Positions 18,801-49,398 of a stretch of 50,928 nt of DNA are shown here, piece by piece. This DNA comes from a virus. The stretch covers positions 1 to 50,928 of the IMG/VR virus record IMGVR_UViG_3300023170_000042. One strand, 5' to 3'. Both the position numbers and the translations under genes were made by a program. The notes under the pieces were generated by a model, which was not told where the DNA came from, made no database searches, and saw only the letters and a list, made by a program, of their open reading frames with translations. The stretch's first letter is position 1, and every line of letters begins with the position of its first letter.

Positions 18801-21800
18801 GCAAATAAGTTTTCTATTCAAGCTTCAAATGCCGGTACTGCATCTGGATTTGTTAATGAAGGAATAGTGTACATTTATGAAAAAATAGGTAAAAATTATA
18901 CACTCATCAAATCTTTATTATCTCCAGATCGAAAAGATAATCAATATTTTGGATCAAAAATTCAAACATCATTAAATTTTGAATCTTTATATAAAGCTGT
19001 TATTAGTGCAAAGAATAATACCACTTACGCTGATCCGGGAAAATTATTTTTCTTAAAAAATGGGGTAGAAAGTAATATTACATATAACTGGGATTATAGT
19101 AGATACAAGCAATATAGAGGAGCGTTTTCTGTTGATGCTGAATATTTAACAAATGATGTTGTATATTATGAATATAATAATTATACTTTTTATAAAGCTA
19201 CAACAACATTAGATCCTGGAGATTTTAATGATTTATATTGGATTCCAATCGATTCATTAATAGATTATTTAGGAGAATTACCTAATGATCAAGGATTGAT
19301 TTATAAAGAAAATAACGAGTTATTAAATTTAATACCAACTGATAATTTATACGATTTTGCAAGCGAGTTTGTTTTAAGTGATGCTGGAGAAGTTATTGCT
19401 GTTTTAGTTTCATATGATGACATTGATAATGTTGTAGCCGTCTACAGGAATAGAGGAGGGTATTATGAATGGAGTCAGAATTTATCAGCACCAAAAAATA
19501 GTGTATCATTTGGACATAGTATTGATATTAATACAGATGGGTCAATTATTGTAGTTTCTGATCCATTTTATGATAATAATGATAAAGTTGATGTAGGAAT
19601 TGTTTATGTGTATATTCAAAGTAATGGATTATTTACGTTACAGCAAATATTACAAAATCCTAATCAAGTAACATCAGCTCAATTTGGATTTAAAATTAGT
19701 TTAGATCAGAATTATCTAGTTTGTAATGCTAGAAGCGCAAGTAACAAAAAAATAACGACTTTTGATTCAAATAAAACTTTATTTGATAATGGATTTACAG
19801 AATTTGCTTATGAGAATGCCTATAGTGGTAGCGTTTATGTATATCAACTATTTAATAATTCTTTTATTTACGCTCAAGATCTTACTACTAGCTATAATAA
19901 TAATTACTATTTTGGAAGAAATTTACTAACAGTAGGAAACCATATATATGTAGGATTACCTAGAGTTAAATCTAGTACAGGTTATACTGGAATTGTAGTT
20001 AATTATAAAGTTGATGACAATATTTATATTGAAAAAAGAAAATCTATAGATGTTGTTGATGTTTCTAAGATAAAAAAAGTTTTCTTGTATAATAAAAAGA
20101 CAAAAAAGTTATTAACATATTTAGACTATATAGATCCGTTACAAGGAAAAATTGCAGGAACAGCGGAGCAAAATTTATCATATAAATTATTTTATGATCC
20201 TGCAGTATATTCGCATAAAAATGGTGTTCTTGAAAATGAATCAAATTATTGGACAGAAGAAAATGTTGGAAAATTATGGTGGGATTTGAGAGACACAAAA
20301 TTTTATAATCCGTATCTAAATGATTTAGTATATGCTGCAAATTATTGGAATAAAATTTTCTCAACAAATTTTGTAAAAGTTTATGAATGGGTAAAATCAA
20401 GATTCAAACCTTCAGAATGGGACGAGTTGACCGGAACGAATGAAGGTTTGACATTAAACATTACAGGAACAACATTATACGGAGATAATTATTATAGTGA
20501 ACGTAGACAATACAGTCAATCGTATCAAACATATACTACTTATTATTATTATTGGGTAAAGGATAAGCAGGATATTCCTTTTGTTGACGGTAGAACATTA
20601 TCGGCATTAGATACGTCATTATTAATTCAAGATCCACAGTCGCAAATGTATCGATTTGTAGGTTTTTTACAAGATAATTCATTTGTTGTATATAATTGTA
20701 AAGAACTATTAGAAGATAAAAATGTAATATTAAGTATACAATACTGGAATGTAGATAATGTAACTCAAAATAGTCATTATCAATATAAATTAATAGCTGA
20801 CGGTTTGGCAAATAGTATGCCAAATCATGAAATAGTAAATAAATGGATAGACAGTTTAGTTGGAGCAGATAAAAAAGGTAGGTCAGTTCCAGATCTTACC
20901 TTAGACGAAAAAAATAGATATGGAACGCTTAATCATCCAAGACAAGGATGGTTTGTAAATAGACAAGAAGCATTAAAGCAATTAATTGAACGAGTAAATG
21001 ATGTAATTGCAGATAAGTATATCACTTTCGGTAAAGACATAAGTGATTTGACTGCATACGAGCAGCCGCCCTTATTAAGTGAAAATTTATATGATACTAC
21101 AGTTGACACATTATTAGATTTGGATTATTTAGGATTGTCTAAAATTACACAAGCAGTCTTAAAGCCTATTGTTGTCGATGGTAAAATAATTACCATAATT
21201 ATAGAAAATCCAGGTAGAGGTTATGTAACAACTCCTACATATATATTATCTGGGCAGGGTTCTGGAGCAGAAATAGAAATAGGTATAAATGAATTAGGAT
21301 CTATAGTATCAGCTAATGTAATTTATGCAGGAAAAGATTATACAGATAATCTAAGATTATTTGTTAGACCGTATACTGTATTGGTAAATTCTGATAATAC
21401 AATAAATGGAAAATGGTCTTTGTATGAAAGAACATCTAATTTTAGTTGGTTAAGAATAAGAAGTCAGTCTTATAATACAAATTTATATTGGGAATATAAA
21501 GATTATTATTTGCCAGGTTATTCTAATTTAGTCTCAGTAAATCATCAAGTAGATTATTCTTATCAATTAGATTTTTTAAACATTAATATTGGAGATATAG
21601 TAAAGATTAATTATATCGGAGATACAGGATGGTTATTATTACTTAAGATTGATAACCAATCTAATGTTGATTATACTATAAATTATAAAGTAATTGGTAA
21701 GCAAAATGGAACTTTAAAATTTTTACCGTCGTTGTATGATTACAGTTCATCTACTATAAGTTTTGATACTACAAGTTTTGATGCAGATTTTTATGATAAT

Positions 21801-37150: not shown

Positions 37151-38557
37151 TTGGGATTAGAAAATCTAGTCAAATTCAAATATGATGTAATGGACAAAAT
37201 TAGTCCTACTTTTTGTGCAGCAAAATGGAAACAAGTCACAATTCATTTACAGAATGGTCACACTCACAGTTGCCATCATCCTGTAACACATAAAGTTCCG
37301 TTAGACGAATTAAAAGAAAATCCAAGTGCTTTGCATAATACTAAGCATAAGAAAATGTTGCGGAAAATGATGCTAGAAGGAGAAAGACCTCCAGAATGTG
37401 ATTATTGTTGGCGGGTAGAAGATAATAACAGCGATAGTATAAGCGATAGAGTTTTTAAAACTGCTGATACATGGTCGGCACCATATATCGATGATATAAA
37501 AAATAAACCTTGGGATGTAGATGAAGTACCTTCGTATTTAGAAGTAAGTTTTGGAAATGTATGTAACTTTAAATGTAGTTACTGCGCTCCTCATATCAGT
37601 AGTAAATGGATGGAAGAAATTGAAGCTTATGGTGCATATCCTACAGCTGATAGTTTTAATAATATTGATACACTTAAAAAGCAAAACACATTGCCAATAC
37701 CTTATAAAGATAAAAATCCATATATAGATGCATTTTGGAAATGGTGGCCTGATATAGCTAATAAAGTTGAACATTTTAGAATAACTGGAGGAGAACCATT
37801 ATTGAATAAAGAAACTTATAAATTTTTGGATTATATAATTGAAAATCCTAATCCAAATTTAAATTTAAGTATCAATGCTAATATGTGTCCTCCAACTGAT
37901 TTATTAAATAAATTTATAGAAAAAGTTAAAATAATAATTAATGAAAAGAAAGTTAAAAAATTTAAAGTTTTTACCAGTTGCGAAGCGCATGGTAATCAAG
38001 CAGAATATATTAGATTTGGTTTAGATTATAATTTATGGTTGTCTAATATAGAAAAAATGTTAAAAGAAGTTCCAGGTTTAGGTTTTACAATTATGAGTAC
38101 TTATAATGCACTAAGTATTCCAAGCTATATTGATTTTTTAAAAGATGTTGTAAGATTAAAAAAAGAATACTGGAATCCTAAATTTTATACATCATCACCT
38201 GTATTGTTAGATATACCTTATTTAAGATATCCTACACATCAATCTGTTTTTATTTTAACTGAAGATTTTGTTAAAGATGTTTATGATCAAGTAACATTTA
38301 TCTATACTAATCTAGAAAATAAGAATTGGCAAGGTAGCGCAATGATGGGATTTCATGAACACGAAGCAGAAAGGATGAAAAGAATTTACGAAATGGTATT
38401 GACCCATCCTAAAAAAGAGAATGAAGCATATAATGATTACAATAGGAAAAATTTTCGATTATTCGTAGATGAGCACGACAAACGAAGAAACACAAACTTT
38501 GTTCAAACATTTCCACAAATGGAAGAATTTTATAAACATTGTGGAACTTTTTTATAG
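37151..38557 (+). CDS. Radical SAM protein with an N-terminal twitch-like cysteine domain
   Basis: This 468-residue radical SAM enzyme has the cluster motif C138-x3-C142-x2-C145 (FGNVCNFKCSYCAP) and the SAM-contacting GGEP at 213-216 (FRITGGEPLLNK). Before the core lies an auxiliary cysteine region: Cys22 (TFCAAKW), Cys41 (HSCHHP), and Cys83/Cys86 (PPECDYCWRVED). This is the layout of the family described as radical SAM proteins with an N-terminal twitch domain, whose auxiliary cluster precedes the barrel. The reaction is unknown; relatives act on peptides or on sugar-linked substrates. The start is a TTG at 37151 with an ideal AAGGAG (37137-37142) 8 nt upstream; the next in-frame ATG (residue 14) has no such site. 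Confidence 0.85.
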   Translation: MGLENLVKFKYDVMDKISPTFCAAKWKQVTIHLQNGHTHSCHHPVTHKVPLDELKENPSALHNTKHKKMLRKMMLEGERPPECDYCWRVEDNNSDSISDRVFKTADTWSAPYIDDIKNKPWDVDEVPSYLEVSFGNVCNFKCSYCAPHISSKWMEEIEAYGAYPTADSFNNIDTLKKQNTLPIPYKDKNPYIDAFWKWWPDIANKVEHFRITGGEPLLNKETYKFLDYIIENPNPNLNLSINANMCPPTDLLNKFIEKVKIIINEKKVKKFKVFTSCEAHGNQAEYIRFGLDYNLWLSNIEKMLKEVPGLGFTIMSTYNALSIPSYIDFLKDVVRLKKEYWNPKFYTSSPVLLDIPYLRYPTHQSVFILTEDFVKDVYDQVTFIYTNLENKNWQGSAMMGFHEHEAERMKRIYEMVLTHPKKENEAYNDYNRKNFRLFVDEHDKRRNTNFVQTFPQMEEFYKHCGTFL

Positions 38558-38569
38558 ATAAATAAAAAT

Positions 38570-39973
38570 ATGTCTAATACACACAAATTAATATTTGGTT
38601 ATGATTATGTTTTTCCTAATTTTTTTGTGCCAAATGCTTTGTGGCCAGAATTATTTCATTTAAATTATATGTATAGCCAGCATGTAGCTACAAGATCTGA
38701 TCAAGCTTTAACTTCTCCGAATATGGAAACAGATTATTTAAAAATTCATCAGTTTCTATTTCGCAACCAAAAAGGACATTGGCCTAACAGCACTAATCAC
38801 AGTAATATATTAGCAAATTCATATTATAAAAAAGTAAAAATTATAGAAAAATCTGTATATGATTGTAAAAGACATAACGAAAAATATATATATCCTATAA
38901 AAATGTCTCCTCATATAGAAGATTTTTCTGGTTATGATTTAAACACTAAATTAAGTGGAGAATTTTTTTGGAAATATATATCTAAACAGGTCTTAGAAGA
39001 TGTTCAAAATAGAAAATGTGTTATATTTTTAGATTATGGGCAGGAAAATTTTATAGATAAACTTACATATGAAAAGTTACATAATTCTTTACGTGGATGT
39101 AATATACCTGCAGATCAAATTGTACTCGGTTTTAATACTTTCAATGGTAAATCATTATACGAAAAATGGTTTGCTCCTGAAAGACAACGGTTAAAAGTTT
39201 TTAATTTTCCTTTTGTAATATGTCAGTCTAGTTTTACTTATTCGACAAAACCAGTTAATGATGTTAGAAAATTGAAAAAGGTACAAAGGAAATACTATTT
39301 TTTATTTAAGGTTAGATCACCAAGACAACATAGATTGTTTTTTCTTGCTGCTTTTACAACAAAAAATTTACTCCACAAGATAGATTGGTCTTGTTTGAAT
39401 CCAAATGTGTTTGATGTAGGTACATTGTCGTGGATGGCAGATAAATTTAATACACAATTAAATCATGATAAAATTTTAGCTTTGCATAAGATTTTACCAA
39501 AAAATTTGCATTATGAGCCTAGATCTACAGTAGATAGTGTTGCAGATTGGCCAAACGAGGCACCTATTTCTTACAATCAAAGTTACATATATATATGTTC
39601 AGAGACATTTACTCATGGAGAGCATAAATCTCTTACTGAAAAAGTTTTTAAACCGATTGCACATTTTATGCCATTTATTTTTATAGCGTTTCCCGGTGCT
39701 TTAAAAATGTTACACAAATTAGGATTTAAAACCTTTCATCCTTATATTAACGAATCTTATGATTCGATTGAAAATGAAAGTCATAGATTCAGGGCGATAT
39801 TAAATGAAATAGAAAGGTTAGCTGCATTGCCTATAGATGAAATAGAAAAAATGTATTGGTCAATGTATGAAATATACGAACATAATTATAAAGTATTAAT
39901 TAATTTTAATGATAGTGAAAAATTGAATTTAGAAATGCTAAATTTTTTGCAAAGTAAAATAGAAAATACATGA
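38570..39973 (+). CDS. GT-B-like putative glycosyltransferase, paralogue 1
   Basis: This 467-residue protein has a C-terminal half ending in a nucleotide-sugar-binding pattern: LTEKVFKPIAHFMPFIF (about 354-370), LGFKTFHPYINESYD (about 383-397), then an R-rich helix. This recalls the donor-binding lobe of fucosyltransferase/exostosin-type GT-B enzymes, where SEK-x-F-x-P is a hallmark. A central RSPRQHRLFF motif lies at about 248-257. The genes at 41841 and 49388 share this C-terminal design, and the first two have the motifs at nearly identical positions. A GATAAATA element overlaps the preceding stop, only 5 nt before the ATG. It overlaps the rmlC-like gene by ATGA. Confidence 0.55.
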   Translation: MSNTHKLIFGYDYVFPNFFVPNALWPELFHLNYMYSQHVATRSDQALTSPNMETDYLKIHQFLFRNQKGHWPNSTNHSNILANSYYKKVKIIEKSVYDCKRHNEKYIYPIKMSPHIEDFSGYDLNTKLSGEFFWKYISKQVLEDVQNRKCVIFLDYGQENFIDKLTYEKLHNSLRGCNIPADQIVLGFNTFNGKSLYEKWFAPERQRLKVFNFPFVICQSSFTYSTKPVNDVRKLKKVQRKYYFLFKVRSPRQHRLFFLAAFTTKNLLHKIDWSCLNPNVFDVGTLSWMADKFNTQLNHDKILALHKILPKNLHYEPRSTVDSVADWPNEAPISYNQSYIYICSETFTHGEHKSLTEKVFKPIAHFMPFIFIAFPGALKMLHKLGFKTFHPYINESYDSIENESHRFRAILNEIERLAALPIDEIEKMYWSMYEIYEHNYKVLINFNDSEKLNLEMLNFLQSKIENT

Positions 39974-40515
39974 ATTACAAAAAGAAAAAATGGAATGAGT
40001 TTGATATAAGTTATCTAACTACTTTTGATAAAGAGATTCCTATTTTTACTCCTAGTGTATATCACGAATACAGAGGGCAAATATTTACTACATATCATTC
40101 TACATATCATCCTGTAAATAATTTTGTAACAATTAATTCAAATATACATAGCAGATTTTCTAAATCTTATAAAAATGTTCTAAGAGGGTTGCATTATGAT
40201 AATAAAACTTATAAATTAGTGCAGGCTATCGTAGGAGATATTTACTTGGTTGTTTTAGATGTTAGGGCCGATAGCTCTACGTTCGGAAAATGGGAATCAT
40301 ATGTAATTAACGATAAATTACGAGATCAAGTTTTGATACCTCCTGGGTTCGCAAACGGTCATTTTGCATTGTCGGATTGTATTTTTCATTACACTATGTT
40401 TTATAATGGAGATTATGTAGACGAAAATAAACAAAGCGTTATTAAATGGAACGATCCTCAATATGAAATTGAGTGGCCTACAGATTGCCCTATATTACAA
40501 AAGAGAGATATATGA
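39970..40515 (+). CDS. dTDP-4-dehydrorhamnose 3,5-epimerase-like protein (RmlC family)
   Basis: This 181-residue cupin of the RmlC/RfbC family is clearly recognisable. It has FSKSYKNVLRGLHYD (63-77), with the catalytic-type His75 after RGL, KLVQAIVGDIYLVVLDVR (82-99) with a SxTFGKW segment, and VLIPPGFANGHFALSD (121-136). C-terminal KWNDPQYEIEWP (159-170) is the usual ending. RmlC epimerises C3 and C5 of dTDP-4-keto-6-deoxyglucose; family members act on related 4-keto sugars. No RmlA, RmlB or RmlD is in the window, so the substrate would have to come from the host or from genes outside, possibly with the SDR at 43234. It starts in an ATGA overlap. Confidence 0.88.
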   Translation: MNYKKKKWNEFDISYLTTFDKEIPIFTPSVYHEYRGQIFTTYHSTYHPVNNFVTINSNIHSRFSKSYKNVLRGLHYDNKTYKLVQAIVGDIYLVVLDVRADSSTFGKWESYVINDKLRDQVLIPPGFANGHFALSDCIFHYTMFYNGDYVDENKQSVIKWNDPQYEIEWPTDCPILQKRDI

Positions 40516-41234
40516 AAATATATAAAAAGATATTGTCTTTTGGATGTAGCTTTACTGAAGGTAATGGTCTTGAAACTCCATATTATCATCAATATTTATC
40601 TAGTAATTTAGGTAATAAAAATAATTTAGAATTAGAGACTATATATAGAGATTATATGTATAATAATTCTTATCCGGCGTATCTTGCAAGAAATCTTAAT
40701 TGTGATTTTGATAATTTTGCTGTATCTGGATCGTCAAACAGTTTAATTTTTAAAAAATTATATGAAAAAACTCAAAACGTAGAAAATGGAAGTGATTTGC
40801 TTGTAACTGTACAAACTACACTTTTGTCAAGAATTATGGTATATGATATTAAACAAGAAAAATTTTTAACAATTAGCAATTTTGAAAGAATACTAGATTA
40901 TGCTAAAAAATATTATGAAATGTATTTGCGGCATTTTTATGATAAAGAAATAGAATACAGAAATCTTTTGCAAAATATTGAGGTTCATACAAAATATTTG
41001 CAATCAAAAAATATTAATGTAGTTTGGTTGATGTATGAAACAGGCGATACTTTAAAAAGTTCAAAAACTATACTAACATTTGACGGAACAGATTTATCGC
41101 AATTTATCGCAAATCAAAAATTAAGGTTACTAGATTTACCTAATTTTCCTGTAAATAACCAACATTTTTCTGTAGAAGGGCATGAAGTAATCGCAAATAG
41201 AATTATAGAACATTTAAAAGGTAAGTATGATTAA
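40512..41234 (+). CDS. SGNH/GDSL-like hydrolase or acyltransferase, copy 1
   Basis: This 240-residue protein has the block I motif SFGCSFTEGNG (9-19, nucleophile Ser13) of the SGNH superfamily. Near the C-terminus NNQHFSVEGHEVIA places a His at about 218 and 224. The usual Asp of the D-x-x-H block is replaced by Asn at about 215-216, so it may be a divergent or non-hydrolytic member. Such proteins remove or transfer acetyl and other acyl groups on sugars. I start at 40512, where the ATG overlaps the preceding TGA (ATGA); an upstream in-frame ATG at 40473 would extend into the rmlC-like gene. It overlaps the next gene by 8 nt. Confidence 0.68.
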   Translation: MKIYKKILSFGCSFTEGNGLETPYYHQYLSSNLGNKNNLELETIYRDYMYNNSYPAYLARNLNCDFDNFAVSGSSNSLIFKKLYEKTQNVENGSDLLVTVQTTLLSRIMVYDIKQEKFLTISNFERILDYAKKYYEMYLRHFYDKEIEYRNLLQNIEVHTKYLQSKNINVVWLMYETGDTLKSSKTILTFDGTDLSQFIANQKLRLLDLPNFPVNNQHFSVEGHEVIANRIIEHLKGKYD

Positions 41235-41856
41235 AAATTTAGAAAAATATCCAATAGTAAGGCATATAGAGTATGATAAGAATGATTTAATTGATTTTGA
41301 AAATAAAATTGTTATACATTGGGAATCAGGTAAAATAAGAGGACCTGTGCATTTGTCAAATGGCAATGAAATAGAATTAATTGAAATTTTCCAGCGGATA
41401 AAAAAATCTGATTGGGTGTTTTCTACATGGAGAAATCATTATCATGCATTATTAAAAGGAATAGATCAAAATTGGTTAGAAGATGAAATTTTAAAAGGTA
41501 AAAGTATAACTATTTGTAATATTGATGAAAAATTTTATAGTTCTGCAATTGTAGGAGGTGGTTTGTCTATTGCTTTAGGAGTAGCTGCATCTATAAAACG
41601 TAATGGATATAATGATAAAGTTTGGTGTTTTGTAGGAGACATGTGCTATGAATCGGGTATTTTTTATGAAGTACATAAATATTCTAGGAATTTTGATTTG
41701 CCTATATATTTTATTGTAGAAGATAACGGTCTTTCTACTAACACACCTACAAAGCATACGTGGAATAAAACATCGTCTATTCCAGAGGACATAATTCATT
41801 ATACTTATCAATCGAAATATCCTCATTATGGTACAGGGAAATGGGTGGTATTTTGA
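41227..41856 (+). CDS. Thiamine-diphosphate-binding PP-domain protein, E1-alpha-like (minimal)
   Basis: This 209-residue protein resembles the alpha subunit of 2-oxoacid dehydrogenase E1. It has STWRNHYHALLKG (67-77 region), IVGGGLSIALGVAASIK (108-124), and the diphosphate motif GDM at 137-139 followed by exactly 26 residues and D166-N167, equivalent to the family GDG-x26-NN. The third Gly is Met and the first Asn is Asp. Length is about 209 against roughly 360 for full E1 alpha, so the C-terminal part is missing. The pyrimidine-binding partner is encoded 4.4 kb downstream at 46215. Acyl transfer or carboligation on a sugar is a possible role, but the substrate is not evident. Confidence 0.75.
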   Translation: MIKNLEKYPIVRHIEYDKNDLIDFENKIVIHWESGKIRGPVHLSNGNEIELIEIFQRIKKSDWVFSTWRNHYHALLKGIDQNWLEDEILKGKSITICNIDEKFYSSAIVGGGLSIALGVAASIKRNGYNDKVWCFVGDMCYESGIFYEVHKYSRNFDLPIYFIVEDNGLSTNTPTKHTWNKTSSIPEDIIHYTYQSKYPHYGTGKWVVF

Positions 41857-43241
41857 AATTTGTTTATGAAAATTGGTTTGTACAAGAGGGAATACGATAT
41901 CCCTTACCTAATGGATTGCATAAAAAAATTGTTGATCAGTTATTAGAATTACTTAACGGAACAACAATGACATTGAGCGAAGCGCAAAAAGTTGTGTCTG
42001 CAAGAGTATCAGGTGATGTATTTGTTTTTAATCATTGTAATTTGAATGGCTACTTTCTTAAAGATAAAGGTGTGCAAAATTTCTGTTCATTAGATGAAGT
42101 TGTGTACGGTAACGAGTATTTCTATCCTATAGAAATAAGAACATCTCCAAATACTACATATCAAAAACTATGCGTTCAAATAGATGGCCGTCAACATTCT
42201 TATAAATTAATAGATACTTTGTCTGAGAAGACTAAAAAATTATTGCAATACGGAACAGTAAAGATAGTTTTTAATCAAGCTCAAGATCCTTTAAACAATA
42301 CAATTGATCTTGACATAATGCAAAGTGACTTTAACCGGTATAATGTGCCGAGCAAAAATCTGATTTTTATTGCTGGAAACAAATATAGCGAATATAAAAA
42401 ACACAGTCCGAAATGCGGTATAAAACTTACTGATGCAACACTGATGATTTCTCAACAAGTAGCAACTAATGCAACATATTATCCTAAACATACTAGTTTA
42501 GGTTATATCTCAGACTTAGTACGCGAAGATGATCTAGATTCAAACAATATTAGAGAAAATAGATTTATTTGTTTTAACAGGATGATGCGTCCGCATAGAA
42601 TTGCAATGGCATATGTTGCAATTAAATTAAACTTGTTAGATAATAATATTTTTACGTTCCTTAATTTGGATGCCAATAACGACGTAGAGCATTTTAAGAA
42701 TTGTATAAAGCAACACTTTCCGAATGAAACTAACCCTGATCACTATGCAAAAAGCCTTTTTGAGATAATTCCGTATGAATTAGAAACACAGCATTTAAAA
42801 GACAAAGGCAGTTTTACAATTGATAATACTAATAAAAAACATTTTTTAAATTCGTATGTCAATATAATTACTGAGACTAAATTTGATGCAAATGTAGACA
42901 CATTTATATCAGAAAAAACATGGAGACCAATTAGTAATTTACAGCCGTTTATTTTGTTAAATAGTGCATATAGTTTGCAATATTTAAAAGATTTAGGATT
43001 TAAAACATTCCATCCTTTTATAAACGAAACTTACGACAATTTTACTAGTATAGAAATACGTTATGAGCGTATATTTAATGAAATTAAAAAATTAAATGAT
43101 ATGCCGATACAAGAGTTACATGATTGGTATTATAGTATTACTGATATTTTAGTACACAATCAAAAACATTTATATACACTAAAAGACATAAGTCCATTTA
43201 AAGATACTTGGAATGATTTAAAAAGGTTTTATTATGACTAA
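41841..43241 (+). CDS. GT-B-like putative glycosyltransferase, paralogue 2
   Basis: This 466-residue protein is nearly identical in layout to the one at 38570. It has FNRMMRPHRIAM at about 244-256, ISEKTWRPISNLQPFILL (about 355-372) and LGFKTFHPFINETYD (about 384-398), then a helical end with IQELHDWYYSITDIL. A second possible start is the TTG at 41853, which overlaps the preceding TGA as TTGA; the ATG at 41841 is used here but the choice is uncertain. The shared SEK-x-W/F-x-P and LGFKTF motifs suggest nucleotide-sugar binding. It overlaps the downstream SDR gene by 8 nt (ATGACTAA). Confidence 0.55.
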   Translation: MGGILKFVYENWFVQEGIRYPLPNGLHKKIVDQLLELLNGTTMTLSEAQKVVSARVSGDVFVFNHCNLNGYFLKDKGVQNFCSLDEVVYGNEYFYPIEIRTSPNTTYQKLCVQIDGRQHSYKLIDTLSEKTKKLLQYGTVKIVFNQAQDPLNNTIDLDIMQSDFNRYNVPSKNLIFIAGNKYSEYKKHSPKCGIKLTDATLMISQQVATNATYYPKHTSLGYISDLVREDDLDSNNIRENRFICFNRMMRPHRIAMAYVAIKLNLLDNNIFTFLNLDANNDVEHFKNCIKQHFPNETNPDHYAKSLFEIIPYELETQHLKDKGSFTIDNTNKKHFLNSYVNIITETKFDANVDTFISEKTWRPISNLQPFILLNSAYSLQYLKDLGFKTFHPFINETYDNFTSIEIRYERIFNEIKKLNDMPIQELHDWYYSITDILVHNQKHLYTLKDISPFKDTWNDLKRFYYD

Positions 43242-44169
43242 GGTTTTAATTACAGGTGGTGCAGGATATCTAGGATCAACTATTTCTGAACATCTCCTTA
43301 GTAAAGGGTACAGTGTAACAGTATTAGATAATTTAATGTATAAACAATTAAGTTTATTGCACCTATTTAAATATAATAAATTTAATTTTGTAAAAGACGA
43401 TGTAAGAAATGTTGAGCTTTTGCAAAATTTAGTAAAAGAACACGATGTTATTATACCTTTGGCTGCTATTGTAGGGATGTCAGCTTGTGAAGTAAATCCT
43501 AATCTTAGCATAGATGTAAATTATAGGCAAATAGTAAATATTGTAAGGGTATTAAAAAGCCATCAAAAACTTATAATGCCTAATACAAACAGTCAGTATG
43601 GATCTAGCGAAGAAATTATCACAGAAAACAGTCCTTTTATACCATTGAGTTTATATGCTAAAACAAAATGTGATGCAGAAGATGTAGTCATAGCAGCAAA
43701 AGGTGTAGCATTAAGATTGGCTACAGTATTTGGTATAGGAACTAGAATGCGTCAAGACCTTTTGGTTAATGATTTTGTATATAAAGCAGTTACAGATGGT
43801 TATTTGGTTTTATTTGAATCTAACTTTAAGAGAAATTATATTCATGTACAAGATATAGCAAGAGTATTTGAATTTGTAATAGAAAATTATGACAAGTGTT
43901 TTGGGGAAGCATTTAATGTAGGACTATCAACTGCTAATTTAAGTAAGATAGAATTAGCTGAAAAAATTAAAAAACATCTTCCTAGTCTTGTTATAAAACA
44001 AGATGAGTTTAGACAAGATTTTGATAAAAGAAATTATATAGTCAGTAATGAAAAAATTGAATCAATAGGTTTTCATCCAAAATATGATTTAGATTATGGA
44101 ATAACACAGTTAATAAATGCATACAGCGTTATAATTACTTATAATAATAGGAGTTTTACAAACTTATGA
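43234..44169 (+). CDS. NAD(P)-dependent sugar epimerase/dehydratase (extended SDR)
   Basis: This 311-residue extended short-chain dehydrogenase/reductase has the Rossmann dinucleotide motif ITGGAGYLGS (6-15), acidic Asp32 after the second strand (VLDNL), DDV (55-57), PLAAIVG (75-81), NTNSQYGSS (117-125) and the catalytic YAKTK (Tyr141, Lys145). RLATVFG and RNYIHVQDIAR (200-210) complete the UDP-glucose-4-epimerase-like family pattern. It would oxidise, epimerise or dehydrate a nucleotide sugar using bound NAD(P). With the RmlC-like gene it supports a modified hexose pathway. The substrate cannot be deduced. It overlaps the genes on both sides by 4-8 nt. Confidence 0.88.
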   Translation: MTKVLITGGAGYLGSTISEHLLSKGYSVTVLDNLMYKQLSLLHLFKYNKFNFVKDDVRNVELLQNLVKEHDVIIPLAAIVGMSACEVNPNLSIDVNYRQIVNIVRVLKSHQKLIMPNTNSQYGSSEEIITENSPFIPLSLYAKTKCDAEDVVIAAKGVALRLATVFGIGTRMRQDLLVNDFVYKAVTDGYLVLFESNFKRNYIHVQDIARVFEFVIENYDKCFGEAFNVGLSTANLSKIELAEKIKKHLPSLVIKQDEFRQDFDKRNYIVSNEKIESIGFHPKYDLDYGITQLINAYSVIITYNNRSFTNL

Positions 44170-44585
44170 CACAACAAAAAAGAGAAAGACGATACTTGCA
44201 AACCCTTAGTGAGTTAATTGATCGTTTAAGTATTGTACAACTTAAAGAAGTTTTTATTACAGAATACAAAGATGAATACTCGCAAGAAATTGAGGATATA
44301 GTCCATGACATACAGATTATATTAGATGAAAATAATGCAGTAGTAGATGCTAAAACAATTAGAGCTATCATTGTATGTTCTCAAATGAATTTACATATTT
44401 GGCACAACGAATCAAAATTTCGTAAAGGAGAAAAAGAAGGTAACTTAGAACTAACTCATGGGTTGAATGGAATAAGAAATACTAGTAAAAATATAATACA
44501 AGAAATTATAGGGGGTAGAAAAGATTATAAAGTAGATTGTTTAGCAGCTGATTTTAAAGATTGGGAAATCAGCTGGCCGGATTAA
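44166..44585 (+). CDS. Small helical protein of the ELIDRLSI type
   Basis: This 139-residue protein is predicted helical with an N-terminal LSELIDRLSIVQLKEVFI motif (about 15-32), a basic/acidic helix containing EIEDIVHDIQIILDE, and a C-terminal GLNGIRNTSKNIIQEIIGGR. Small proteins with the (G/S)ELIDRL or (G/S)ELVDKIT signature occur beside sugar genes in phages and bacteria; the function is not known to me. The gene begins in an ATGA overlap with the SDR gene and ends 7 nt before an SGNH gene. Confidence 0.55.
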   Translation: MTQQKRERRYLQTLSELIDRLSIVQLKEVFITEYKDEYSQEIEDIVHDIQIILDENNAVVDAKTIRAIIVCSQMNLHIWHNESKFRKGEKEGNLELTHGLNGIRNTSKNIIQEIIGGRKDYKVDCLAADFKDWEISWPD

Positions 44586-44592
44586 ATAAAAC

Positions 44593-45429
44593 ATGAAACT
44601 AAAAAAAGATAAAATTATAAAAGGTTTTTTGTTTGCTGGATGTTCATTTACTTGGGGCCAAGGATTGTATTATTATAGTGGAATGTCTTCAGTAAAAGAG
44701 CAACCATTGAATACTTATAAGCCGGAAATTTTACATTACACACATATAGAATTCGCTAAATCTTTAAGATATCCTCGTCTAGTAGCTAATTATTTTAATA
44801 GTTTTGAATTGGTTCATCCTGCATGTGGAGGGTCACACGAAAGTATCATAAAATTTTGGGATTGTGCAATTTTTAAAAACGGTGGAAATGTTGATGATAT
44901 ACACGTGCCTAATATAGATGCTAATGACATTCAATTTGTAATATTTCAGCTAACACAGCCTCATAGATGTACTTTTAGTATAGGAAAAAAACAGGTAATG
45001 ACGTATTGCGATGCCTTAGAACCAGAAAATAGAAGATATCTCAGAAGTTGGATGAAAAAAAATAAGATACCTACTATAGAAAAATATGTAGAATGGTATA
45101 CTATTCGTAGTCTCACTAGTGTAAGACAGTTTATGAGCCGTTTAGAAGATATTGGAATAAAAACAGCAATATTTACATGGCCTGCAACAAATGTACAATA
45201 TTGTAGGAATGATGATTGGCTAAGATCTCGATACATATCAATGCGTTATAAAAGCTCTGCTTATAATAGTATTGAACGTATGATGGAGGATAACCAAGAA
45301 CTTTGTATACATGCCGATTACGACAACTTTGATATAACTCCTACTGATAGTCATCCTAGTTTATTATGCCATAAAGTTATGGCAGAAAATATTATAAATT
45401 ATATAAATATCAGAGGTTTAAATGAATGA
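44593..45429 (+). CDS. SGNH/GDSL-like hydrolase or acyltransferase, copy 2
   Basis: This 278-residue protein has block I LFAGCSFTWGQG (13-24; Ser18) and a C-terminal TDSHPSLLCHKVMAENI with D252-x-H254-P, the D-x-H pair of the SGNH fold. An internal GGSHESIIKFW (about 80-90) may supply the G/N block. All expected catalytic elements can therefore be placed, unlike copy 1. It is probably a sugar esterase or acyltransferase acting in the cytoplasm, as no signal peptide is seen. It overlaps copy 3 by 8 nt (ATGAATGA), so copies 2 and 3 are likely translated as a pair. Confidence 0.7.
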   Translation: MKLKKDKIIKGFLFAGCSFTWGQGLYYYSGMSSVKEQPLNTYKPEILHYTHIEFAKSLRYPRLVANYFNSFELVHPACGGSHESIIKFWDCAIFKNGGNVDDIHVPNIDANDIQFVIFQLTQPHRCTFSIGKKQVMTYCDALEPENRRYLRSWMKKNKIPTIEKYVEWYTIRSLTSVRQFMSRLEDIGIKTAIFTWPATNVQYCRNDDWLRSRYISMRYKSSAYNSIERMMEDNQELCIHADYDNFDITPTDSHPSLLCHKVMAENIINYINIRGLNE

Positions 45430-46231
45430 TAGATTTTTTGCATTTGGATGTAGTTTTACAAATTGGAACTATCCTACATGGGCAGACTTCATAGGTATTA
45501 ATTTTAAAGAATACAGAAATATAGGCAGAACTGGTGGATCAAATCTACATATGCTAGAAAAATTAGTTGAAATAGATAATAGATTTGGTTTAGATCAAAA
45601 TGATACTGTATATATTATGTTAACTGGTGTTTTTAGATTTAGTTATTGTGATAACAACGAAAATTGGAATTATGATGGAGATCTAATTAATTATGTTGCA
45701 AAGAATAACAGGACTCCGATGCGTAATTTTATAAAAGACATCTATAACGAAACTTTTGCTGTACACCAAACTTGGACGGCTGTTTTAGCTATGAAATCTA
45801 TTCTTGAATCTAAGAAAGTAAAACATAAAATTTTGATGGGAATTGACAATAGTCATTACTTGCAGCGTAACTCACATGAACATGGTAGAGATCTAACTAA
45901 TAGCATAAAATCTATAAACAAAATGAAACAAGTTTACGAAATTTGTGATTTAGATACTAGTTTAGAAAGTTGGCTTATAGAACATAAAATATATCAAGAA
46001 GTAGCAATACAATATAAAGACGGAACAGTAGACGGACATCCAAACTACACTAGTCAGTTTAGATTTATTGAACGCAATTTTCCAGAATATTATACAGATG
46101 CGTCTAAAAAATTACAGCAAGTAACTACTCAAGAATGTCAATTTTTAAATCAACGGCAGCAAGCAAGAGATTGGGATAAAATAAGAAGACGATTTACAAA
46201 AATGGATACAGAAAATGGAAACACTTTATAA
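45422..46231 (+). CDS. SGNH/GDSL-like hydrolase or acyltransferase, copy 3
   Basis: This 269-residue protein starts with FFAFGCSFTNWNYPTWADF (5-23; Ser11), with GRTGGSNLHMLEKLV (about 39-53) as a likely oxyanion-hole block (G, then N) and D204-G-H206-P-N (GTVDGHPN) as the Asp-His block. The order and spacing fit the SGNH superfamily. The C-terminal 50 residues are glutamine- and arginine-rich (QRQQARDWDKIRRRFTK) and may be a helix for partner binding. It overlaps the next gene, the E1-beta-like subunit, by 17 nt. Confidence 0.7.
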   Translation: MNDRFFAFGCSFTNWNYPTWADFIGINFKEYRNIGRTGGSNLHMLEKLVEIDNRFGLDQNDTVYIMLTGVFRFSYCDNNENWNYDGDLINYVAKNNRTPMRNFIKDIYNETFAVHQTWTAVLAMKSILESKKVKHKILMGIDNSHYLQRNSHEHGRDLTNSIKSINKMKQVYEICDLDTSLESWLIEHKIYQEVAIQYKDGTVDGHPNYTSQFRFIERNFPEYYTDASKKLQQVTTQECQFLNQRQQARDWDKIRRRFTKMDTENGNTL

Positions 46232-46739
46232 ACAAGAATTAATTAATGCAATGACATATTTAGGAGAAAAGGACGATACTATATTTGTTGGACAACAAAT
46301 TGTGTTCAAAGGTAATCCTATGAGCACTACTTTAGTAAATGTTTCTAAAGACAAAATGATAGAAACTCCTGTTTTTGAAGAAATACAAATGGGGCTAGGA
46401 TTAGGATTAGCAGTAGCAGGACAGTTTGTAATTAGCTTTTATCCTAGATGGGATTTTTTATTAAGCGCATCCAATCAACTAGTAAATCATGTTGATAAAT
46501 TTAGTTTAATGACTAATAAAACTGTTGGTATGATCATTAGAGTAGGCAAAGGTGCTGATACCCCATTAGATCCAGGAGTCCAGCATAAAGGAAATTATTT
46601 ACAAGAATTTAAGTCGTTGTGTAAAAATATAAATTTTGTAGATTTAGATGGACCTGATAAAATTTTTCAAAGTTATAAGGATGCTTATGAATATAAAGGT
46701 ATACACTTATTGGTCGAATATCCAGAATTATATATTTAA
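46215..46739 (+). CDS. Thiamine-diphosphate enzyme PYR-domain protein, E1-beta-like (minimal)
   Basis: This 174-residue protein aligns by eye with the first domain of 2-oxoacid dehydrogenase E1 beta. YKQELINAMTYLGEKDDTIF (5-24) corresponds to the opening helix, KMIETPVFEEIQMGLGLGLA (47-66) matches IIDTPISEMGFAGIAVG and places the cofactor-activating Glu at 55, and FYPRWDFLLSASNQLVNHVD (75-94) and GVQHKGNY (121-128, His124) follow the E1-beta pattern. The transketolase C-terminal domain is absent: length 174 against about 330. With the PP-domain gene at 41227 it forms a minimal alpha/beta pair. Start chosen at 46215, overlapping the SGNH gene. Confidence 0.72.
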   Translation: METLYKQELINAMTYLGEKDDTIFVGQQIVFKGNPMSTTLVNVSKDKMIETPVFEEIQMGLGLGLAVAGQFVISFYPRWDFLLSASNQLVNHVDKFSLMTNKTVGMIIRVGKGADTPLDPGVQHKGNYLQEFKSLCKNINFVDLDGPDKIFQSYKDAYEYKGIHLLVEYPELYI

Positions 46740-46748
46740 TAATAATAT

Positions 46749-48443
46749 ATGTATGATGTTTTTTATATAGGCAAAAATTTAACAGAATATCAAAAGTTAA
46801 AAGATCTTATTCCCACCACAAAGTTAGTACACAATTTTCAAGAAGCTGTTTTAAAAAATAATACTAAAATGTTTTGGACAGTTTATGATGATTTGGTAAT
46901 TTTAGATTATGAAATATTTAGATTGAAAATAAATGAATATGACGAAAAATATATTCATGTATTTTTAAATGATAAAAATTATGATGGTTTAGCACTTGTA
47001 CCAAAAGGTAAACAAGTAACCGAAAAAGAAGTTAATCATCGTTTTTTTATTGAGCACAAAAAAATTGAAAGAAAAGTTACACATCCTAAACGATTTGATA
47101 TTTTTTGTATTGAAACATGGGAGGATTACGAACATGCTCTTAAAAAATCTAGTACAGAAATGTTTTGGGCAACAAGTAGTAATATAAAGATATGTAAAAA
47201 TTTTGATTTAAATTTTTATTTTAGTCATCATGATAGTTATAACAGACAAGAAAATCATGTATTTCAACATCTAGTAGGAGATGATGTATTTTACAACGGT
47301 TTATTTTTATTAAGTAAAAATAAATTACTAACAAAAAAGGAAGTAGAGTATAGACATATTGTTAGCAGGAAAGAATGGGAAATTTGTGCGTCTACGTCCG
47401 TTGAATATGATATATTTGAAATTAATAATTTTGAAGATTACAACTACGCTTTAACAAAATCTAAAACAGAAATGTTTTGGAGCACATCAAAGCAAGTCAC
47501 AGTAATAGATAAAGATATTATGAAGACGTATTTTAATCATAATGATATCTACAATAGGCACGAAAATCATGCTTTTGTAAATTTATGTAATAATGAAGAG
47601 TTGTATAATGGAATTTTTTTACTTAGTAAACACAAAAAAGTAGCAAAAAATGAAATAGATTTTAGACACATAGTATCTTGCAAAAAATGGCAAATAATTG
47701 CATCAAAACATAAAGTTTATGATGTAGTATTTGTCAGTTATAATGAAAAAAATGCAGATGAAAATTTTGAGATTTTGAAACAAAAATATCCAGAAGCAAT
47801 ACGCATACACGGAATTAAAGGAATACATGAGGCACATATAGCAGGAGCAAAGTTAGCTAAATCAGATATGGTTTGGTTTATTGATGCAGATGCAATGCTT
47901 TTAGAAGATTTTACACTAGAATATTTTGTTGATATTTGGGACAGGCAAACCGTGCATGTTTGGGCATCAAAAAATCCAATAAATGATTTAGTGTATGGAT
48001 ATGGTGGAGTTAAATTATTCCCAAGAATTTTAACAATTAACATGAAAAAAGATAGCACTGATATGACAACATCTATTTCAAATAGATTTAAACCTATGAA
48101 ATCTGTGTCTAATATTACAAAATTTAATACAGATCCTTTTAATACTTGGAAGAGTGCTTTTAGAGAATGTTGTAAATTAAGTTCTAGTGTTATAGAAAAA
48201 AACCAATCAAAAGATGTGTTTATATCTGTAGAAGATTCTAAAAAAGCTGAAGAAGAACGGGAACATAGATTAAATATTTGGTGTACAGAAGGTGCAATTA
48301 AAAAATATGGAAATTATTGTATCTTAGGAGCTAAAGATGGTAGAGATTATGGACAAAAAAACAAAAATGATATAGAAAAGTTAAAATTAATTAATAATTT
48401 TCAATGGTTACATGAGAGATTTTCAAAATATTCCTTTTCATAA
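46749..48443 (+). CDS. Triple-repeat protein fused to a GT-A-type putative glycosyltransferase
   Basis: This 564-residue protein has two parts. Residues 1-321 are three tandem copies (about 1-113, 115-217, 219-321) of a roughly 100-residue unit with the signature EMFW(A/S)TS, YF-x-H-H/N-D-x-YNR-x-ENH, YNG-(L/I)FLLSK and RHIVS-x-K-x-W. Copy 1 is the most diverged (KMFWTVYDD, DGLALVPKGK). Residues about 322-564 are a GT-A-like domain: VYDVVFVSYNEKNADENF, IHGIKGIHEAHIAG, then VWFIDADAML with DxD (Asp379, Asp381), and VYGYGGVKLFP. This second part is a paralogue of the protein at 36224. The repeats may bind substrate or scaffold. It overlaps the radical SAM gene by 32 nt. Confidence 0.62.
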   Translation: MYDVFYIGKNLTEYQKLKDLIPTTKLVHNFQEAVLKNNTKMFWTVYDDLVILDYEIFRLKINEYDEKYIHVFLNDKNYDGLALVPKGKQVTEKEVNHRFFIEHKKIERKVTHPKRFDIFCIETWEDYEHALKKSSTEMFWATSSNIKICKNFDLNFYFSHHDSYNRQENHVFQHLVGDDVFYNGLFLLSKNKLLTKKEVEYRHIVSRKEWEICASTSVEYDIFEINNFEDYNYALTKSKTEMFWSTSKQVTVIDKDIMKTYFNHNDIYNRHENHAFVNLCNNEELYNGIFLLSKHKKVAKNEIDFRHIVSCKKWQIIASKHKVYDVVFVSYNEKNADENFEILKQKYPEAIRIHGIKGIHEAHIAGAKLAKSDMVWFIDADAMLLEDFTLEYFVDIWDRQTVHVWASKNPINDLVYGYGGVKLFPRILTINMKKDSTDMTTSISNRFKPMKSVSNITKFNTDPFNTWKSAFRECCKLSSSVIEKNQSKDVFISVEDSKKAEEEREHRLNIWCTEGAIKKYGNYCILGAKDGRDYGQKNKNDIEKLKLINNFQWLHERFSKYSFS

Positions 48444-49398
48444 AATTGTTAAGCTAGGACAATCTACATTATTACATAAAGATTTGTTTACAGTTTCTTG
48501 GATTATAGATAGATTTTGTAATTATAATTGTACGTATTGTTGGCCTTATGCAAGATCAAGCACTACTGCTTTTTTAAATTTTTCTGTTTATGAAAATGCA
48601 ATTGTAAGAATTAAAGATCAAGCAAGAAAAAATGGTTTTCAAAAATTCCATTTTAGCTTTAGTGGAGGCGAACCTACTGCTTATTTGCATTTATTGAAAT
48701 TAATTGATATATATGCAAAAGATAATGTTGATTATCAAAGTATACATATGACAACTAATTTATCACCTTCATTAAAATGGTGGAATAAATGGGTCAAAAA
48801 AGTAAGTAAATTATCTCGAAAAAGTATTACAGCAAGTTATCATGATGAATTTGCAGACGAGGATGAATTTATAAAAAAATGTTTGTTTTTACAAGAACAT
48901 GATATTTTTATCACAATAAATCAAGTAATGGTACCTAGTAGATTTGATTTATTGTATGAAAGATGTGTAAGGTTTAAAAATGCTGGAATAAATGTAACTT
49001 TAAAACCACAGAGTGATCCTACTGCAAAATTTATTGTTAATGAGTACACAGATGATCAAATAAAAATTTTAAAAACAGGATTCCCTCAAAAATGGAAAGG
49101 TGTAGAACTATTACAGGTAGAATTGTACGATAATAATAATAATGTTTATTACCTTGATCAAGCAGAAAGATTAAATGCATTTAAATTTAATAAATTTAAA
49201 GGATGGAATTGCAATGCAGGATTTCAAAGTATAATAATACGGGAAGATGAAATAAAAAGATCTTATAGTTGTGCAGATAAGCCAATAGGAAAAATTTATG
49301 AAGATTTTAATATATTTACAACAGCAGGAAAATGTGTAACTGATAGTTGTGTGTCGAGTGCAGACAGTAAAATTCCTAAAGAATATATTACAAAATAG
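48412..49398 (+). CDS. Radical SAM protein with C-terminal cysteine cluster region
   Basis: This 328-residue radical SAM enzyme has C36-x3-C40-x2-C43 (DRFCNYNCTYCWPYAR), the GGEP motif at 85-88 (FSGGEPTAYLHL), and a TIM-barrel-like middle. The C-terminus has extra cysteines, GWNCNAGF (near 265), YSCAD (near 285) and KCVTDSCVSSAD (near 305-316), which could hold an auxiliary SPASM/twitch-type cluster. This differs from the first radical SAM protein, whose auxiliary cysteines precede the core. The start ATG at 48412 overlaps the previous gene. The reaction is unknown. It is the last plus-strand gene of the cassette and its 3' end overlaps the convergent minus-strand gene by 11 nt. Confidence 0.85.
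   Translation: MRDFQNIPFHKIVKLGQSTLLHKDLFTVSWIIDRFCNYNCTYCWPYARSSTTAFLNFSVYENAIVRIKDQARKNGFQKFHFSFSGGEPTAYLHLLKLIDIYAKDNVDYQSIHMTTNLSPSLKWWNKWVKKVSKLSRKSITASYHDEFADEDEFIKKCLFLQEHDIFITINQVMVPSRFDLLYERCVRFKNAGINVTLKPQSDPTAKFIVNEYTDDQIKILKTGFPQKWKGVELLQVELYDNNNNVYYLDQAERLNAFKFNKFKGWNCNAGFQSIIIREDEIKRSYSCADKPIGKIYEDFNIFTTAGKCVTDSCVSSADSKIPKEYITK

Follow-up and report, generated by a model that had tools for sequence, protein, structure and literature searches.

The stretch analysed here (termed the window) is viral DNA of 50,928 nucleotides, positions 1 to 50,928 of IMG/VR record IMGVR_UViG_3300023170_000042. Within it, two short open reading frames (ORFs) lying 4.4 kb apart encode proteins that resemble parts of the E1 component of the 2-oxo acid dehydrogenases, which depends on thiamine diphosphate (ThDP). 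The pair is termed here mini-E1 and its members alpha and beta. A sequence-only reading of the window had described the two ORFs as an enzyme stripped to its diphosphate-binding (PP) and pyrimidine-binding (PYR) domains, and both are located where that reading placed them:

Positions 41227 to 41856, plus strand: mini-E1 alpha, 209 residues (aa), the PP (diphosphate and Mg) domain of an E1-type ThDP enzyme.
Positions 46215 to 46739, plus strand: mini-E1 beta, 174 aa, a PYR domain with the activating Glu55 and His124, lacking the transketolase C-domain.

The identity of the two proteins was examined first against family profiles. Alpha matches the Pfam family E1_dh with an E-value of 7.5e-14 (51.8 bits, above the cut-off of 22) and covers positions 6-172 only of that 300-position profile; beta matches Transket_pyr over residues 11-156 of its 174, with an E-value of 0.0013 that falls under the Pfam cut-off, and gave no match to the transketolase C-domain in a Pfam search at E-values up to 1. 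The proposal that each protein lacks the C-terminal half of its family stands. A profile built from alpha relatives finds pyruvate dehydrogenase (PDH) E1-alpha at 1.8e-19, whereas its best DXS and transketolase matches reach 8.5e-06 and 7.3e-05, respectively, and one built from beta relatives finds PDH E1-beta at 2.6e-15, all 12 of its matches at E ≤ 0.01 being E1-beta-type chains. Neither protein reaches the NCBIfam cut-off for a PDH E1 (84.4 bits versus 393.85 for alpha; 29.3 versus 321 for beta), and the match of alpha to TPP_enzyme_C, the decarboxylase-type PP domain, is likewise under its cut-off (18.9 versus 21.9 bits). PHROG_34187, a 405-aa phage protein family of unassigned function, matches alpha over positions 2-198 (1.5e-50) and beta over positions 237-398 (2.7e-19). 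Plasmid records matching alpha number 250, all below 60% identity; in the 15 listed, identity is 29-35% and the named features are E1 or thiamine-dependent enzymes. Judged by sequence, then, alpha is a relative of E1-alpha reduced to the PP domain and beta a relative of E1-beta reduced to the PYR domain.

Both cofactor motifs that had been read from the sequence are present at their expected positions and are conserved throughout the family: alpha carries GDM at 137-139, followed after 26 residues by DN at 166-167, and beta carries Glu55 and His124. Conservation was counted after low scorers and stretches shorter than 185 or 160 aa had been excluded, and after 3 alpha and 20 beta rows of differing total length had been removed (the beta rows including full-length E1-beta proteins and the beta fusions L046 and L239; L and G numbers denote loci and genomes, respectively). 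On this basis, beta E55, R78 and H124 are conserved in 184 of 184 distinct stretches and alpha S106 in 181 of 181, while alpha D138 is Asp in 170 and Glu in 11 of the 181, and N167 is Asn in 166 and Asp in 15. A loss of cofactor residues among homologues, which the sequence-only reading had named as evidence that would tell against it, is thus not what the alignment of 184 beta and 181 alpha stretches shows. Among the 11 alphas in which Glu replaces the metal-binding Asp (GEM for GDM), 10 come from Pelagibacteraceae regions; L311:9051-9650 and L312:9031-9630 belong to this set, together with nine others. Gln replaces His73 in 17 of the 181 alphas.

That alpha and beta are parts of one enzyme is suggested most directly by natural fusions. 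A fused alpha-beta protein of 388-407 aa (388 where a contig end cuts it) occurs in 59 viral loci, a figure that counts Synechococcus phage S-SM2 twice (L161 and L163); in S-SM2 and in Prochlorococcus phage P-TIM68 it is annotated as a 'transketolase central region-containing protein'. (The P-TIM68 gene, L162:12004-13209, is annotated from 12067; the homologous frame begins 63 bases earlier.) The split type comprises 81 alpha loci, namely the window plus 80 IMG/VR loci retained from 126; viral loci are not independent of one another, L001-L003 having exactly the same alpha and beta proteins as the window and other near-copies being counted as well. Beta lies in the flank of 61 of these 81 loci (53 downstream by 1.0-7.8 kb, 4 overlapping and 4 upstream), and 17 of the other 20 have a beta elsewhere on the contig; both genes are thus found on one contig in 78 of 81, and the three exceptions end less than 4.8 kb downstream of alpha. 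When the search is anchored on beta, alpha falls outside the flank in 31 of 80 loci. Six of these lie on the contig of an alpha locus; a search of the remaining 25 located alpha on the same contig in 4, and the other 21 hold just 0.08-6.1 kb upstream. Among the matches listed from a collection of genomes, at least 34 of 61 loci belong to the mini type, with 26 adjacent pairs, 7 fusions and one phage-like arrangement (L220); these counts, like the taxonomic range given below, are lower bounds.

Beta was also seen joined to other sequences. The 591-aa product of L046:8054-9826 joins beta to some 400 aa from a different protein; in L239 it forms part of a 546-aa ORF; and at L051:14780-15556 a beta lacking its N-terminus follows, in frame, the apparent C-terminal part of a short-chain dehydrogenase/reductase (SDR), a chimera attributable either to recombination or to faulty assembly.

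Structures were modelled as single chains for a fused relative and for the window beta. The fused model (the S-SM2 copy L163, from a 57-row alignment) has a predicted local distance difference test score (pLDDT) of 91.9 and a predicted template modelling score (pTM) of 0.93. Its PP half superposes on E1-alpha 2ozl_A (Z 19.8, root-mean-square deviation (rmsd) 2.3, 195 residues aligned) and its PYR half on E1-beta 1w85_B (Z 24.1, rmsd 1.6, 169 aligned). The entire chain superposes on transketolase 3ooy_A (Z 20.7, rmsd 3.8, 356 aligned), with which it shares the PP-PYR order, and in a plain Foldseek search transketolase and DXS chains rank first. The window beta model (pLDDT 94.8) superposes on E1-beta 1um9_B and 1w85_B (Z 22.9, rmsd 2.0-2.1, 169 aligned); it aligns to residues 2-178 of the 323 in 1um9_B, and ends with the PYR domain. 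Because fusions occur naturally, because the two genes co-occur almost constantly and are adjacent or fused in cells, and because the folds agree, alpha and beta can be regarded with high confidence as one enzyme, a minimal PP plus PYR unit of the kind that the sequence-only reading had envisaged. Chance similarity of beta was considered separately and is ruled out: fusion family, profile and fold concur despite the sub-cut-off Pfam match.

The small size of the pair is not confined to phages. In a tree of 106 alpha regions, all 80 mini sequences group against 26 full-length E1 sequences (support 100/100); given that this tree is midpoint-rooted and that its full-length rows are those reached by the alpha query, it cannot tell loss of the C-domain from a C-domain never gained. 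Split phage copies cluster with copies from Pelagibacteraceae and other marine proteobacteria (98/97), and fused copies, whether from phages or from cells, fall into a single group (82/94, a branch without a star). Records of mini-E1, among the matches listed, come from at least Pelagibacteraceae, Parcubacteria, Taylorbacteria, Kaiserbacteria, Nanoarchaeota, Pacearchaeota and Omnitrophota, many of them being metagenome-assembled genomes in which binning errors are possible (L238, for example, is titled Streptomyces griseus). Within Pelagibacteraceae (the family of G045), 20 of 247 sampled genomes carry the pair, one of them in phage-like form (G141). Small size is a family-wide trait and not decay, and the pair is widespread rather than peculiar to the window phage; truncation specific to phages is ruled out by cellular copies of similar length.

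The window derives from the baseplate region of a myovirus. The nearest relatives of its 1140-aa baseplate protein, at 35-39% identity, come from large phages (Sinorhizobium phage Phosso, Salicola phage SCTP-2 and Agrobacterium phage Atu_ph07), and those of its 537-aa hub protein from Pseudomonas phages of about 286 kb (33% identity); downstream of the baseplate genes, positions 9879-24143 form one ORF of 4754 aa. Around and between alpha and beta lie the following genes:

Positions 39970 to 40515, plus strand: RmlC-like sugar 3,5-epimerase (Pfam dTDP_sugar_isom, 6.5e-33).
Positions 41841 to 43241, plus strand: 466-aa protein between alpha and beta, with no significant Pfam or PHROG match.
Positions 43234 to 44169, plus strand: extended SDR of the family termed here SDRf3, GalE/4,6-dehydratase-like (Pfam Epimerase, 7e-31).
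Positions 44166 to 44585, plus strand: 139-aa protein of unassigned function, with weak DUF7164/DUF7783 matches under the cut-off.
Positions 44593 to 45429, plus strand: SGNH-like protein, a motif-based label (GCSFT-like motif, no Pfam match).
Positions 45422 to 46231, plus strand: SGNH-like protein, again a motif-based label, overlapping the start of beta (no significant Pfam match).

The sequence-only reading had named SGNH, SDR and transferase genes as lying between the subunits. The SDR is confirmed, the SGNH assignments (44593 and 45422) rest on motif, and the supposed transferase at 41841 lacks a significant Pfam match; the sole Pfam GDSL match is the gene at 40473, upstream of alpha (0.0019, under the cut-off). 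Genes from 39970 to 49398, including alpha and beta, form an unbroken plus-strand run in which neighbours overlap or nearly touch, which makes co-transcription of the two subunits plausible despite the 4.4 kb gap. Radical SAM proteins stand on either side of the cassette (37151-38557 and 48412-49398; Pfam 6e-08 and 1e-10), and radical SAM genes are also frequent beside cellular mini-E1 (26 of 146 neighbour proteins).

Several of these neighbours recur with the pair (neighbour families being defined by BLAST single linkage, with thresholds that vary between analyses). The RmlC-like family (the window member of which scores 117.0 bits against NCBIfam rmlC, under the cut-off of 155.75) occurs in 73 of the 81 split-type loci and immediately precedes alpha in 48; the families SDRf2, SDRf3 and SDRf7 occur in 70, 67 and 55 of these loci, and the radical SAM family of window position 37151 in 48. 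Less frequent are the families of the 466-aa protein (33 of 81), the 139-aa protein (24 of 81) and the SGNH-like protein at 44593 (12 of 81). The fused type has other company, namely a zinc alcohol dehydrogenase (Zn-ADH; 57 of the 59 loci) and a PfkB kinase (51 of the 59). Cells carry some of the same types: cellular mini-E1 neighbours include the SDR and RmlC types of the phage loci, and SDRf3 relatives of 45-49% identity lie close to mini-E1 in L222, L223, L232, L234, L238, L241 and L251. Two adjacent distant relatives of the 139-aa protein were observed in the Pelagibacteraceae cluster L308, at 2120-2557 and 2553-2990 (27% and 26% identity; 9.7e-11 and 8.4e-06).

The nature of the cellular gene set is clearest in Pelagibacteraceae, for which larger regions were examined in 16 of the 20 genomes (L308-L323; G045 (= L222), G089, G141 and G179 were left out). 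An RfbH/ColD-like protein with an HH motif is present in 15 of these 16 regions; the motif occupies the site of the lysine in DegT aminotransferases, and is taken here to be the mark of pyridoxal phosphate (PLP) 3-dehydrases such as RfbH and ColD. An HddA-like GHMP kinase lies directly 3' of beta in 13 of the 16, and SDRf3 is intact in 13. The operon also holds an RmlC-like epimerase, GmhA- and GMD-like genes are found nearby, and a 395-aa neighbour resembles a fusion of an HddC-like guanosyltransferase with a GmhB-like phosphatase, both parts scoring under the cut-off. Across the 247 genomes, those with mini-E1 are enriched in HddA-like genes (18 of 20, versus 26 of 227 without; nominal Fisher p 2e-13), SDRf3 (17 of 20 versus 19 of 227; 1e-13) and RfbH-like genes (14 of 20 versus 22 of 227; 3e-9, a count in which weaker hits had no motif check and the diverged copies of G045, G221 and G226, that is L222, L308 and L309, were missed). 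All three genes occur together in 13 genomes with mini-E1 and in 9 without it; the existence of such sets lacking the pair implies that mini-E1 tailors a sugar built by other enzymes rather than making its skeleton, and mini-E1 looks like an optional tailoring step. More broadly, among the matches listed for 34 diverse cellular loci, HddA-like genes appear in 10 and RfbH-like genes in 10, the motif of the latter being HH in 7, HQ in one and an aminotransferase-like Lys in one.

Other ThDP enzymes occupy the same clusters. A longer E1-like pair (about 279 + 305 aa) lies beside mini-E1 in L311, L312, L313, L316, L318, L319 and L322, and L311, L312, L313 and L318 add an acetolactate-synthase-like ThDP enzyme, making up to three ThDP systems per surface-sugar cluster. 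An enzyme of the latter kind, with 31-34% identity to the Pelagibacteraceae one, also stands at the edge of the fused-type phage loci L171, L195, L197, L198 and L218. Another ThDP subunit or a split transketolase was found in 6 of the 9 regions holding HddA-, RfbH- and SDRf3-like genes but no mini-E1 (L328, L329, L330, L331, L333 and L335, and not L332, L334 or L343), a count read from the printed genes with no background control. It is as if ThDP modules were interchangeable in these clusters.

Synthesis of the branched sugar yersiniose uses a nucleotidyltransferase, a dehydratase, a 3-dehydrase, a ThDP enzyme and an SDR. The Pelagibacteraceae operon resembles this set, with mini-E1 in the place of the ThDP enzyme YerE, and this resemblance favours the reading that mini-E1 adds a two-carbon (C2) branch to a 4-keto deoxysugar, a reading to which a rough probability of 0.55 is given. 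It is also favoured by RfbH-like proteins with HH motifs in phage loci (12 of the 59 loci of the fused type and 2 of the 81 of the split type, plus the beta-anchored L114 and L120, by BLAST and motif pattern). From the computed homology, domains, residues, fusion and co-occurrence, and operon context, we infer an assembly, donor, acceptor, product and role as follows. Alpha and beta would assemble as an alpha2beta2 tetramer, with ThDP held between alpha (whose GD...N motif would bind Mg and diphosphate) and Glu55 of beta. A 2-oxo acid, probably pyruvate, would be decarboxylated on ThDP, and the resulting two-carbon acyl carbanion would join the keto carbon of a nucleotide-linked deoxysugar to give a C-branched sugar, which an SDR would then reduce. 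In the host, the deoxysugar so tailored would come from a heptose-type pathway comprising GmhA, an HddA-like kinase, an HddC-GmhB-like fusion, a GMD-like dehydratase, an RfbH/ColD-like 3-dehydrase and an RmlC-like epimerase; the phage would carry a partial cassette, in which cassette genes separate the subunit genes, probably to change the surface glycan of its host. The action on sugars suggested earlier from the sequence, with a two-carbon branch on a keto-sugar as its example, thus fits the cellular operons and the full-length relatives described in sections of PMC12247030 and PMC4425429; the reaction itself is a proposal.

Several observations weigh against C2-branching. Neither the window nor 79 of the 81 split-type flanks has an RfbH-like gene by BLAST and motif pattern, so that split-type phages would rely on the host or use another acceptor; an HddA-like match was found in no viral locus examined; and RfbH-like genes appear in only 10 of the 34 cellular loci listed. 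The Pelagibacteraceae operon type carries Glu for the metal-binding Asp and Gln for His73. The HddA-, RfbH-, RmlC-, HddC- and GmhB-like names all score under the NCBIfam equivalog cut-offs, and the Fisher p-values are optimistic, inasmuch as the genomes are related and the E-value thresholds were set by the author. Finally, the strongest cellular neighbour is an anomeric sugar kinase, which, like the Zn-ADH and PfkB kinase beside the fused type, also suits a step before nucleotide activation.

This last point leads to the alternative that survives best, though it is judged rather unlikely: a ThDP carboligase acting before nucleotide activation, which would make or extend a free or phosphorylated sugar for the anomeric kinase next to it, which is HddA-like or, with the fused type, PfkB. 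In 14 of the 20 short loci from Pelagibacteraceae, the HddA-like kinase adjoins alpha-beta directly, and the fused form keeps its Zn-ADH and PfkB partners nearly throughout (57 and 51 of 59); however, the 9 genomes that hold the HddA/RfbH/SDRf3-like set without mini-E1 show the kinase to be independent of the pair, and GmhA-like and HddC-GmhB-like genes, able to make an ordinary activated heptose, are nearby in several loci. An improbable alternative is a transketolase-like ketol transferase that would use a hydroxypyruvate or ketose donor to make a ketose or a two-carbon ketol branch. The superposition of the fused chain on transketolase and the Foldseek ranking agree with it, as do a split transketolase pair in HddA-RfbH-SDRf3 loci without mini-E1 (L330 and L331) and the proposal, in a section of PMC12247030, that split transketolases act as sugar branchers in Streptomyces; the sequences, on the other hand, are nearest to E1, by the profile comparisons for both subunits given above.

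An ordinary 2-oxo acid dehydrogenase E1, or a decarboxylase supplying small metabolites, that lies among sugar genes incidentally is decidedly improbable. PDH E1-alpha and E1-beta are indeed the top family matches, but alpha reaches 84 bits where the PDH cut-off is 394, and the 146 neighbour proteins, in which 80 Pfam families were recognised, show neither an E2 nor a lipoyl family among the 25 that are most frequent. In E1-beta, the C-domain that mini-E1 beta lacks carries much of the contact with E2. Identity as an ordinary PDH E1 was itself rejected, full-length subunits and the beta C-domain being absent and the NCBIfam PDH cut-offs not reached. That the copies in phages are remnants, in decay or without catalytic function, as their short length, separated genes and sub-cut-off beta might suggest, is very improbable, in view of family-wide conservation of the cofactor residues, ORFs open on more than 100 contigs and similar lengths in cellular lineages.

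A broader view of C2-branching by mini-E1, offered tentatively and with more doubt than belief, is that the pair represents a domain-minimal branch of the E1/transketolase superfamily in phages, SAR11, the candidate phyla radiation (CPR) and DPANN, reflecting either a stage before the C-domain or a single loss of it; it would be an E2-independent sugar-branching carboligase that phages have borrowed and scattered through glycan cassettes. On this analysis, PHROG_34187 can be given a suggested annotation, as can a surface-sugar operon that recurs in Pelagibacteraceae; branched sugars of an unusual kind, possibly derived from heptose, are predicted both on marine bacteria of high abundance and in hosts altered by phages. 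An enzyme with PP and PYR domains in about 380 residues would be a compact member of its superfamily, suited to probing which parts carboligation requires; and the split arrangement raises the question of why the genes of two mutually dependent subunits can lie kilobases from each other.

The closest known counterpart is PHROG_34187, which, like the window pair, has both halves in PP-PYR order and is homologous to alpha and beta; in the phages found to carry it, however, they form a single chain of about 400 aa near Zn-ADH and PfkB genes, whereas in the window two separate genes, with 4.4 kb between them, are accompanied by RmlC-like and SDR genes. The main texts of two papers searched contain none of the relevant terms (thiamine, transketolase, pyruvate dehydrogenase, heptose or branched in PMC11898729; thiamine, transketolase or pyruvate dehydrogenase in PMC7029224), and in the portions of the literature searched no description of an E1-type pair lacking the C-domain was found.

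In function, the counterpart would be YerE, the yersiniose flavoenzyme, whose job, C2-branching, is the one proposed here for mini-E1, and whose gene has 3-dehydrase and SDR genes among its neighbours. According to a section of PMC12247030, YerE acts on CDP-3,6-dideoxy-4-keto-glucose with pyruvate and is a single chain of the decarboxylase superfamily, unlike the E1-type mini-E1. E1-type pairs with comparable roles are also on record in sections of the same and related papers: in vitro, KbDH-alpha/beta joins pyruvate with ketones that resemble sugars (PMC12247030), and AviB1/AviB2 and Pau11/Pau12 have been assigned a C2 sugar-branching role (PMC4425429, PMC4753412). By their descriptions in these sections, KbDH, AviB1/B2 and Pau11/12 (alpha-KADH2) share with mini-E1 an E1-alpha/E1-beta-like subunit pair in sugar pathways; Pau11 and Pau12 are full length (325 + 345 aa, in a section of PMC4425429), in contrast to the roughly 200 + 175 aa of mini-E1, which lacks the C-terminal parts. 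In domain economy, the counterparts are ComDE and RhiEF, described in a section of PMC12141560 as decarboxylase-class two-subunit PP/PYR enzymes without a third domain, with ThDP at the heterotetramer interface in RhiEF. Like mini-E1, they have one PP and one PYR subunit and no third domain; unlike it, they are of the decarboxylase type, mini-E1 being of the E1/transketolase type by Pfam and profile comparison. Structural alignment in PMC12141560 makes RhiE the PYR and RhiF the PP subunit (another sentence in the same section states the reverse), as against the PP-PYR order of fused mini-E1. What distinguishes mini-E1 is that it unites features known separately from these systems, being at once of the E1 type and domain-minimal, in surface-sugar clusters.

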